Positions 25,574 through 28,134 of a stretch of 51,176 nucleotides of DNA are shown piece after piece. The notes beneath the pieces were generated by a model. The model was not told where the DNA came from. It worked only from the letters and a program-made list of their open reading frames with translations, and did no database searches. Each line of letters opens with the position of its first letter. Positions within the stretch are counted from its first letter, which is position 1. The position numbers and the translations under genes were made by a program. The stretch spans positions 1 through 51,176 of the forward strand of contig JALHQP010000013.1 of NCBI GenBank assembly GCA_022841885.1, in the 5' to 3' direction. This DNA is from Aquincola sp. GTDB lineage: Bacteria; Pseudomonadota; Gammaproteobacteria; Burkholderiales; Burkholderiaceae_C.

Positions 25574-26977
25574 ATGTCCGCCGTCTACTCCACCCGAGAC
25601 AACCCCGCGCCGCGCGATGACGAAGTCGCCCGCCTGCGCGTGCCCCCACACTCGATCGAAGCCGAGCAGAGCGTCCTGGGCGGCCTGCTGCTCGACAACA
25701 GTGCCTGGGACCGCGCCGGCGACCTGCTGACCGACAGCGACTTCTATCGCTACGAACACAAGGCCATCTACAAGGCCATCGGCGACCTTGTCACCGGCAG
25801 CAAGCCCGCCGACGTGGTCACGGTCTACGAGCAGCTCCAGATGCACGGCAAGGCCGAGGAGTGCGGCGGCATTGCTTACCTGAATGCGCTGGCGCAGTCG
25901 GTGCCCAGCGCCGCGAACATACGCCGCTATGCCGAGATCGTGCGCGAGCGGGCGGTGCTGCGAAAGCTGATCGAGGCCAGCGATGAGATCGCCACCAATG
26001 CGTTCAACCCGCAGGGACGATCAGTCAGCCAGATCCTCGACGAGGCCGAAGGCCGCGTGTTCCAGATCGGCGAGGAGGGCCAGCGTAGCAAGCAGGGCTT
26101 CCAGAGCATGGACCACCTCGTGGTCCAGCTGATCGACCGTGTGACCGAGCTGCACGAGAACGGCGCCGAGGACGTGACCGGCATCCGTACCGGCTTCTAC
26201 GACCTCGACCGCATGACGGCCGGCCTGCAGGCCGGCGACCTGATCGTGTTGGCCGCGCGTCCGTCGATGGGCAAGACCGCGTTCGCGCTCAACATCGCCG
26301 AGAACGTCGCCGTGCAGGAGGGCCTGCCGGTCGTTGTGTTCTCGATGGAAATGGGCGCGTCGCAACTCGCGCTGCGCATGGTCGGTTCACTCGGCCGCAT
26401 CGACCAGACCCATCTGCGCACCGGGCGCCTCAACGACGACGAGTGGGGGCGCCTGTCCGAGGCGGTGGACCGGCTGAAGAGCGCCAGCGTCTTCATCGAC
26501 GAAACCGCGGCCTTGAATCCGGCCGAGTTGCGCGCGCGCGCTCGGCGCCAGGCGCGCATCTGCGGCAAGCTCGGGCTGATCGTCGTCGACTACCTGCAAC
26601 TGATGAGCGGCTCGTCGGGCAGCGACGAGAACCGCGCCACCGAGCTGGGCGAGATCTCGCGCGGCCTGAAGGCCCTGGCCAAGGAGCTGCAGTGCCCGGT
26701 GATCGCGCTGTCGCAGCTCAACCGCAGCGTCGAGTCGCGCAACGACAAGCGGCCGATGATGAGCGACCTGCGCGAGTCCGGTGCCATCGAACAGGACGCC
26801 GACGTCATCATGTTCATCTACCGCGACGACTACTACAACAAGGAAAGCAAGGAGCCGGGTGTGGCGGAGATCATCATCGCCAAGCAGCGTAACGGCCCGG
26901 TCGGCGACCTCAAGCTGACGTTCCTGAAGCCACTCACGCGCTTCGACAACCTCGCTCCGGGCGGCGGCAGTTACTGA
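25574..26977 (+). CDS. dnaB: Replicative DNA helicase DnaB
   Basis: A 467-residue hexameric 5'-3' helicase that drives the replication fork and binds primase. The N-terminal primase-interacting domain begins PPHSIEAEQSVLGGLLLDNS. The RecA-like domain has Walker A ARPSMGKTA with K234 and T235, Walker B LIVVDYLQLM, and DLRESGAIEQDADVIMF near the C-terminus. No intein is present. The gap to rplI holds a terminator, and I saw no strong promoter in the 70 bases before the ATG. Primase is encoded at 42361-44202. Confidence 0.98.
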   Translation: MSAVYSTRDNPAPRDDEVARLRVPPHSIEAEQSVLGGLLLDNSAWDRAGDLLTDSDFYRYEHKAIYKAIGDLVTGSKPADVVTVYEQLQMHGKAEECGGIAYLNALAQSVPSAANIRRYAEIVRERAVLRKLIEASDEIATNAFNPQGRSVSQILDEAEGRVFQIGEEGQRSKQGFQSMDHLVVQLIDRVTELHENGAEDVTGIRTGFYDLDRMTAGLQAGDLIVLAARPSMGKTAFALNIAENVAVQEGLPVVVFSMEMGASQLALRMVGSLGRIDQTHLRTGRLNDDEWGRLSEAVDRLKSASVFIDETAALNPAELRARARRQARICGKLGLIVVDYLQLMSGSSGSDENRATELGEISRGLKALAKELQCPVIALSQLNRSVESRNDKRPMMSDLRESGAIEQDADVIMFIYRDDYYNKESKEPGVAEIIIAKQRNGPVGDLKLTFLKPLTRFDNLAPGGGSY

Positions 26978-26981
26978 CGGC

Positions 26982-27009
26982 TTGCGTTTCGCCGCATACT
27001 GGATATATT
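26982..27009 (+). promoter_or_regulatory. Promoter of the radical SAM gene
   Basis: TTGCGT (26982-26987), a 16-base spacer and TATATT (27004-27009) form a sigma-70-type promoter whose -10 lies inside the LexA-like box. The expected transcript start is close to the annotated ATG at 27016. Confidence 0.5.
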
Positions 27010-27016
27010 AACAGTA
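26997..27016 (+). promoter_or_regulatory. LexA (SOS) box
   Basis: TACTGGATATATTAACAGTA matches the proteobacterial LexA palindrome, CTG-N10-CAG with an AT-rich core and flanking TA. The site covers the candidate -10 element and abuts the start codon, so bound LexA would block transcription. Confidence 0.75.
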
Positions 27017-28134
27017 TGCAGCCCGAAGCGCCTCCGGCCACGCTCGTGTTCATGCCCGCCCTGAAGGGCCGCGGCACCGCCTGGGCCATCGAGCACCGCT
27101 TCACGACCCGGCACCACGAGTCTTTCGACGACGGCTGGGGCACGCTCGAGCAGGCGGCACGCGAGGAGCAGTCCGCCCCGGCCACGCAGATCATCGAGCA
27201 GACGGTACGCACGATCCTGTCGGGCAACGACTCGCCTGACATCGACTTCGACCTCTCGATCAATCCCTACCGCGGCTGCGAGCATGGCTGCGTCTACTGC
27301 TTCGCACGGCCGACGCACAGCTACCTGAACCTCTCGCCGGGCCTGGACTTCGAGACCCGGATCATCGCCAAGGTCAATGCGGCCGAGCGTCTGCGTGCCG
27401 CGCTGTCGGCGCCGGGCTACGAGCCGCTGATCCTGAACATCGGATCGGCCACCGACGCCTACCAGCCCGCCGAGCGGCGGCTGCGCATCACGCGCGGCGT
27501 GATCGAGGTGCTGGCCGAGTGCCGGCATGCGTTCTCTGTCATCACCAAGTCCTCGGGCATCGAGCGCGATGTCGACCTGCTCGCGCCGCTGGCGCGCGAC
27601 GGCCTGGTCTCGGTCTACGTCTCGATCCCGACGCTGAACGCTGATCTGGCCCGCATCATGGAGCCGCGTGCCACCGCCCCGGCGCGGCGCCTGCGCACGA
27701 TCGAACGCCTGGCGGCGGCGGGCATCCCGGTGGGTGTGAGCGTCTCGCCGCTGATCCCCTTCATCAACGAGCCCGAACTCGAGCATGTGCTCGAGCAGGC
27801 GCATGGCGCCGGTGCCAGCTCGGCGTTCTCGACCGTGCTACGCCTTCCCTGGGAGGTGAATCCACTGTTCCAGCAATGGCTCGAGACCCACTTTGCCGAC
27901 CGCGCGGCGCGCGTGATGGCGCGGGTGCGCGAGCTGCGCGGCGGGCGCGAGAACGATCCGCGCTTCCACGAGCGCATGCAGGGGCAGGGTGTCTGGGCGC
28001 AGATGCTGGCGCAGCGCTTTGCCAAGGCGGCGTGGCGGCTCGGCCTGCGCACCGAGCGGCGCAAGCTGGACCTGTCGCAGTTCCGTCGGCCGCTGCCGAA
28101 GGCAGCGCCCTCGGCCCAGCCCAGCCTGTTCTGA
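27016..28134 (+). CDS. PA0069-type radical SAM protein, likely SOS-controlled
   Basis: A 372-residue radical SAM protein. NPYRGCEHGCVYCFARPTH has the cluster-binding cysteines C88, C92 and C95 (CxxxCxxC). YEPLILNIGSATDAYQPAE and VITKSSGIERDVDLL are further blocks of this family, annotated as PA0069-type and related to spore photoproduct lyase domains. The biochemical role is not established; repair of nucleic acid damage is suggested by the LexA box at the promoter. The ATG at 27016 would leave essentially no 5' leader. The family's KGRG motif starts at residue 17, so a second ATG at 27052 (MPALKGRGTAW) may be the true start. The gene converges on dnaJ with nine bases between stops. Confidence 0.85.
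   Translation: MQPEAPPATLVFMPALKGRGTAWAIEHRFTTRHHESFDDGWGTLEQAAREEQSAPATQIIEQTVRTILSGNDSPDIDFDLSINPYRGCEHGCVYCFARPTHSYLNLSPGLDFETRIIAKVNAAERLRAALSAPGYEPLILNIGSATDAYQPAERRLRITRGVIEVLAECRHAFSVITKSSGIERDVDLLAPLARDGLVSVYVSIPTLNADLARIMEPRATAPARRLRTIERLAAAGIPVGVSVSPLIPFINEPELEHVLEQAHGAGASSAFSTVLRLPWEVNPLFQQWLETHFADRAARVMARVRELRGGRENDPRFHERMQGQGVWAQMLAQRFAKAAWRLGLRTERRKLDLSQFRRPLPKAAPSAQPSLF

Follow-up and report, generated by a model that had tools for sequence, protein, structure and literature searches.

The 20-base palindrome found just upstream of a PA0069-family radical SAM gene in Aquincola sp. is very likely a LexA operator, and its final base (27016) is also the A of the gene's ATG. LexA control of a gene of this sort had already been predicted. 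No earlier report came to light of the other element, the fusion of operator and start codon and the leaderless mRNA predicted from it: among the titles listed by a literature search on LexA and leaderless mRNAs, none dealt with an operator joined to a start codon as it is here. An uncharacterised and widespread radical SAM family is thereby tied to DNA damage by strong comparative evidence, and because operator and start codon share a base, the gene is a natural test case for leaderless translation under SOS. The stretch of DNA that was analysed, 51,176 nucleotides and called the window below, is contig 13 of a 4.08 Mb assembly in 240 contigs.

Table 1. Features at and around the predicted SOS operator
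Feature	Position	Strand	Basis
dnaB replicative helicase (context, outside the switch)	25574..26977	+	PF03796, PF00772
Candidate -35, TTGCGT (3/6 to consensus)	26982..26987	+	read from sequence
LexA box (predicted SOS operator), TACTGGATATATTAACAGTA	26997..27016	.	read from sequence, matrix score, conservation
Candidate -10, TATATT, inside the box	27004..27009	+	read from sequence, inferred
PA0069-family radical SAM protein, 372 aa	27016..28134	+	NF033668, PF04055, ORF

The palindrome TACTGGATATATTAACAGTA begins 19 bases past the dnaB stop codon. It was described as a near-perfect LexA box in a preliminary description of this DNA, and scoring bears this out: with a matrix built from 17 E. coli LexA sites, it takes top place in the window at 23.9 bits, and the runner-up has 6.6 bits. 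No place of at least 12 bits was present in 8 Mb of first-order Markov sequence modelled on the window. The pattern TACTGNATATATNNNCAGTA with at most two mismatches is found in the window only at this box (once per strand), and its mean count across 100 shuffles is 0. By itself CTGN10CAG is common enough, with 14 occurrences in the window where chance predicts 21; the signal comes from the AT-rich core and the TA flanks.

A box of at least 12 bits lies within 300 bases upstream of the gene in 88 of the 90 same-family orthologues examined, that is, in 29 of the 30 best-scoring matches and 59 of 60 hand-picked from the rest of the matches listed, the 90 being drawn from 209 genomes with a match. 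The two members without such a box are L137 and L026, the latter with a half box of 8.3 bits. This comparison of orthologue promoters had been proposed in the preliminary description, and its outcome favors the predicted switch. Control windows elsewhere in 94 plus-strand loci exceeded 10 bits in 0 of 1339 cases, and letter-shuffled upstream regions of the 60 orthologues reached 12 bits in 4 of 3000. The retention of the switch in nearly all close relatives suggests that the enzyme probably helps the cell to cope with DNA damage. In a protein tree the window gene sits within a Sphaerotilaceae-rich group, next to those of Azohydromonas and an unclassified Burkholderiales bacterium. Three other genomes drawn from the genus (G118, G211 and G281, with completeness of 100, 89 and 61%) have no PA0069-family match, so the gene may be patchy at the genus level. 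In one genome of the class a PA0069-family gene is broken into four pieces and interrupted by stops (G325:C55:3308-4330), apparently a pseudogene.

Beyond the window's family the picture is mixed. Among the first 110 loci fetched (30 + 80, two sets that may overlap, L026 and L049 having identical proteins, and with only a partial gene in L097), 71 reach 12 bits (55 of 94 plus-strand loci and 16 of the 16 remaining) and 73 reach 10 bits; the 37 under 10 bits include, by label, 13 alphaproteobacteria and 11 Xanthomonadales. The alphaproteobacterial LexA motif GTTCN7GTTC, on either strand, is present in 11 of those 13 alphaproteobacterial loci (L104, L112, L113, L115, L117, L118, L121-L123, L125 and L126), with 0.006 expected per 310 bases, and is absent from L107 and L120; the Sinorhizobium meliloti psymB orthologue (strain USDA1021) is likewise a PA0069-family gene with a GTTCN7GTTC motif. 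L067, labelled Rhodospirillales, was left out of the 13; in the tree it falls among Burkholderiales, as does L057, labelled Myxococcales, and both may be mis-binned. Boxed orthologues also occur in Oxalobacteraceae and Alcaligenaceae, and an Aeromonas copy has a box of 25.5 bits. Among 27 orthologues from the class's other families, only 2 have a box (30 were over the cut-off outside the window's family, and G349, G360 and G383 were excluded, a contig end or split match cutting off the start). None was found in the 11 Xanthomonadales loci, the one Ralstonia, the further betaproteobacterial loci L091, L099 and L103, or a Legionella plasmid copy. Xanthomonas-type and other LexA patterns had no match upstream of the Xanthomonadales orthologues, where a divergent motif is possible. 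Conservation across distant lineages, which the preliminary description entertained, thus holds for the alphaproteobacteria with their own motif and fails for most other families of the class. SOS control, as predicted from these boxes, is stable in the window's family but does not extend to the protein family as a whole; with the box missing in most other families, the enzyme's job would not seem to need SOS control everywhere. We note that in five Xanthomonadales loci (L096, L101, L105, L109 and L110) inspection by eye shows, 6-8 bases ahead of an ATG, an element resembling TAGGCT or TAGCCT, an arrangement that could also mean a leaderless mRNA.

PA0069 itself reportedly belongs to the Pseudomonas aeruginosa SOS regulon, and no paper was found that links LexA with PA0069, PA0069 with radical SAM, or LexA with Rv2578c. 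SOS control of "splB" (COG1533) was predicted in 2012 in alpha- and betaproteobacteria (PMC3323433), so that the core idea is not new and the novelty is lower than the preliminary description implied. The splB genes of that paper have a LexA box before a gene called a spore photoproduct lyase homologue, with different LexA motifs in the alpha- and betaproteobacteria, as here, and S. meliloti, one of its species, has in strain USDA1021 the PA0069-family gene with an alpha-type box. The paper calls splB a photolyase, the portions of it considered here mention neither PA0069 nor a start-codon fusion, and its splB may be of the PA0069 family. SplB of COG1533 is also given as SOS-regulated in several species in PMC8565304, citing Cirz 2006 for P. 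aeruginosa; the Bacteroidetes SplB of that paper is likewise a COG1533 protein under LexA, with other motifs (such as CTAAN5TTAG) and in another phylum. SplB-like proteins in operons with ImuB-C are described in PMC3765255.

The candidate -35 and -10 elements are separated by a spacer of 16 bases and have together 8 of 12 consensus matches, so the LexA box overlaps a candidate promoter that is itself a weak consensus match. The earlier claim that the palindrome covers the -10 stands in that TATATT lies in the box, and is weakened in that a strict sigma-70 scan of 26900-27140 reported no promoter. From the position of TATATT, transcription is predicted to begin near 27016, which is the A of the ATG. 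Among relatives whose box is fused to the start codon, 31 of 59 promoters have a TTG 14-18 bases before the box, and five other bins of equal width contain 1, 5, 5, 1 and 6; the non-fused promoters have no TTG peak (17 of 71, other bins 8-17). This spacing is the geometry predicted for a promoter with its -10 inside the LexA box and its transcription start at the ATG.

We propose that the radical SAM gene has its own LexA-repressed promoter. LexA would occupy the box in undamaged cells, covering the -10 and both the first transcribed base and the start codon; DNA damage would activate RecA, LexA would cleave itself, and transcription would begin from about base 27016. As the start codon begins on the operator's last base, the mRNA should start at or within a few bases of the AUG and would have no ribosome-binding site, that is, it would be leaderless. 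The product would be a radical SAM enzyme of the spore photoproduct lyase fold that most likely acts on damaged nucleic acid, by a chemistry that would dispense with the lyase's cysteine. LexA control, the first part of this scheme, is judged highly probable; as a claim of the preliminary description it is strongly supported by comparison (the 88 of 90 orthologues and the lexA and recA boxes of the same genome, below), from which we infer binding and induction. In its fullest form the scheme would have a single 20-base element act at once as LexA operator, -10 and transcription start, and supply the first base of the start codon, across a large Burkholderiales group, the leaderless SOS mRNA allowing the switch to be translated directly while ribosomes are altered by damage stress and the product being an SOS-induced nucleic-acid radical enzyme with the lyase fold and a different chemistry that would not use the lyase's cysteine; this whole is offered tentatively.

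The fusion recurs widely. In 59 of the 131 distinct box promoters (10-bit cut, identical promoters removed, leaving 59 fused and 72 non-fused) the box ends on the base with which an in-frame start codon begins, and in all 59 this codon is ATG, though the count would also have accepted GTG and TTG. Ideonella, Azohydromonas and Piscinibacter are among the cultivable relatives with the fused box. A Shine-Dalgarno core in the 14 bases tested is present in 0 of 59 fused and 17 of 68 non-fused promoters (four of the 72, with no start codon found, were omitted), a zero that is largely implied by the fusion because the tested bases are then the box itself. The pattern CTGKATAN6CAGYATG was found in 98 of 299 family genomes, and the reversed pattern once among the matches listed; of 30 matches to the former that were examined, 16 open PA0069-type proteins (4 by motif, the others by eye), and L219 is probably a 17th. 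At L195 and L210 the box-ATG fusion opens ORFs that by eye resemble umuD, so genes other than the radical SAM one share this arrangement. In a tree of 110 rows all 30 fused rows fall in one supported group of 37 (100/98), which also holds 5 rows with a separate box and 2 without a box; the fused label requires 7 changes on this tree, at least 4 of them forced by supported branches. L200, L218 and L220, three fused cases that the tree does not contain, look by eye like members of other subgroups, and a single origin of the fusion is therefore not claimed.

Whether the fused ATG is the codon used bears directly on the leaderless mRNA. It is possible, and the lesser likelihood, that LexA control is right and translation starts at GTG 27046 or ATG 27052 behind a short leader, the ATG at the box end being a by-product of the TA in the LexA consensus. 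The NF033668 model begins at residue 17, the distance from box to start varies widely in non-fused relatives, and 33 of the 59 fused genes offer another in-frame start codon between the ATG and the conserved KGRG, which makes a downstream start possible for some members. Only 3 of the 59 have such a later start with a Shine-Dalgarno core, however, and ATG is the codon in every fused case (in-frame by way of counting). The stretch from the ATG, the most upstream start possible for the gene, to KGRG also looks like coding sequence. Its G+C by codon position is 0.75, 0.60 and 0.81, a weaker contrast than in the gene body (0.65, 0.48 and 0.88), and PATLVF-like residues, beginning before residue 13, precede KGRG in the window protein and several relatives. 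Leaderless translation from the fused ATG is thus the reading we favor, with fair though not high confidence. A measured leaderless case is known from Mycobacterium tuberculosis lexA (PMC2897130), also an SOS gene in which transcription and translation starts coincide, albeit another gene in another phylum.

The preliminary assignment of the product to the PA0069-type radical SAM proteins was confirmed by its score of 438.5 bits against NF033668 (cut-off 360), and a CX3CX2C motif occupies residues 88-95. An AlphaFold model made from 49 sequences (mean pLDDT 81.3) has spore photoproduct lyase as its best Foldseek match (E 4.5e-9), and in a fold comparison the lyase entries have Z scores of 20.2-20.6 and the next fold, NifB, has 15.5, so the similarity to this lyase stated in the preliminary description holds at the fold level. 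The best alignment, to 4rh0 (Z 20.6), has an rmsd of 3.1 over 268 aligned residues with 14% identity; the lyase references used were TIGR04070 and PDB entries 4FHC and 4RH0. A single-sequence PDB search for relatives of the protein gave chance matches only, and a profile search of the PDB placed SkfB first and did not find spore photoproduct lyase, which the fold search found. By sequence the protein is not a member of the lyase family, having 13.6 bits against TIGR04070 (cut-off 400); 38 of the 49 aligned members have weak matches to that model (E up to 10, the best being 7.2e-6), and no TIGR04070 match was found in the Aquincola genome. All 49 members also match, at E up to 10, the Rv2578c family NF038135 (window protein 204 of 430 bits) and the radical SAM mobile pair protein B family TIGR04470 (71 of 410 bits).

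The catalytic cysteine of spore photoproduct lyase is C140/C141, and C140 mutants are named in the titles of PDB entries matched by the fold search. Whereas the lyase has this fourth cysteine, the PA0069-family alignment (n=49, read as sequence columns) conserves none: C88, C92 and C95 are the only invariant cysteines, and the next-best columns have cysteine in 20, 18 and 17 of 49, the window protein only in that of 18 (C169). Other invariant residues include Y94, H101, K178, R184, E216, R218 and R276. The lack of a fourth conserved cysteine indicates that the window enzyme is probably not a spore photoproduct lyase. With the fold fitting and the lyase cysteine missing, the published inference of SOS photoreactivation through splB needs care for the PA0069 family, and our results suggest that the "photolyase" label given to SOS-controlled splB may be wrong for it. 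We put the chance that the substrate is nucleic acid at about even. The gene could be SOS-controlled and its enzyme modify RNA or make a cofactor, with no part in DNA repair, a view that we find doubtful but worth keeping: NifB, lipoyl synthase and RlmN are among the lower-ranking fold matches and most other families of the class examined are without the box, but two types of LexA motif precede the same gene and spore photoproduct lyase leads the fold matches by 5 Z units.

The preliminary description had also proposed a genome scan for comparison with the lexA and recA promoters, and both carry weaker boxes of the same type. With the E. coli matrix the one lexA match in this genome (L046) has boxes of 16.6 and 8.5 bits and the one recA match (L047) a box of 20.3 bits; the box of the radical SAM gene outscores every other LexA box found in this genome. 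A second model, built from 58 of 63 distinct orthologue boxes (the window's own and four others excluded), finds four distinct places at E up to 10, ranking the window box first (15.5 bits, E 0.14), followed by an integron integrase (14.7), recA (12.6) and lexA (10.7). The lexA and integrase identities were confirmed by family models and recA by TIGR02012. As an E of 0.14 is modest alone, the case for the LexA box rests on conservation.

That the palindrome is the operator of a repressor other than LexA which binds a similar dyad (another S24-type protein, for example) is very improbable: the binding protein cannot be named from sequence alone, but boxes of this type also precede lexA and recA in this genome, and the alphaproteobacterial orthologues have the alpha LexA motif instead. 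More improbable still is a chance palindrome before a constitutive gene co-transcribed with dnaB, a gene of the same strand whose end lies 38 bases upstream, given that the conserved box precedes many same-family orthologues without a dnaB match in the available flanking DNA (dnaB is matched in 26 of 110 orthologue loci, the box staying while neighbours vary). Downstream of the radical SAM gene, by eye, lies dnaJ on the opposite strand.

One high-scoring chance site is present in this genome: a second perfect TACTGN10CAGTA (L002, 20.3 bits) was rejected as an SOS gene operator because the ORF around it looks by eye like ubiD. Two further palindromes, in L003 and L004, were dropped with less than 3 bits each. 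On contig 82 (L128, about 1500-1520) the LexA-type box TACTGTATGGACATACAGTC lies 5' of the integron integrase gene, whose product has 567 bits against NF011946, so the Aquincola genome seems to carry an SOS-controlled integron.
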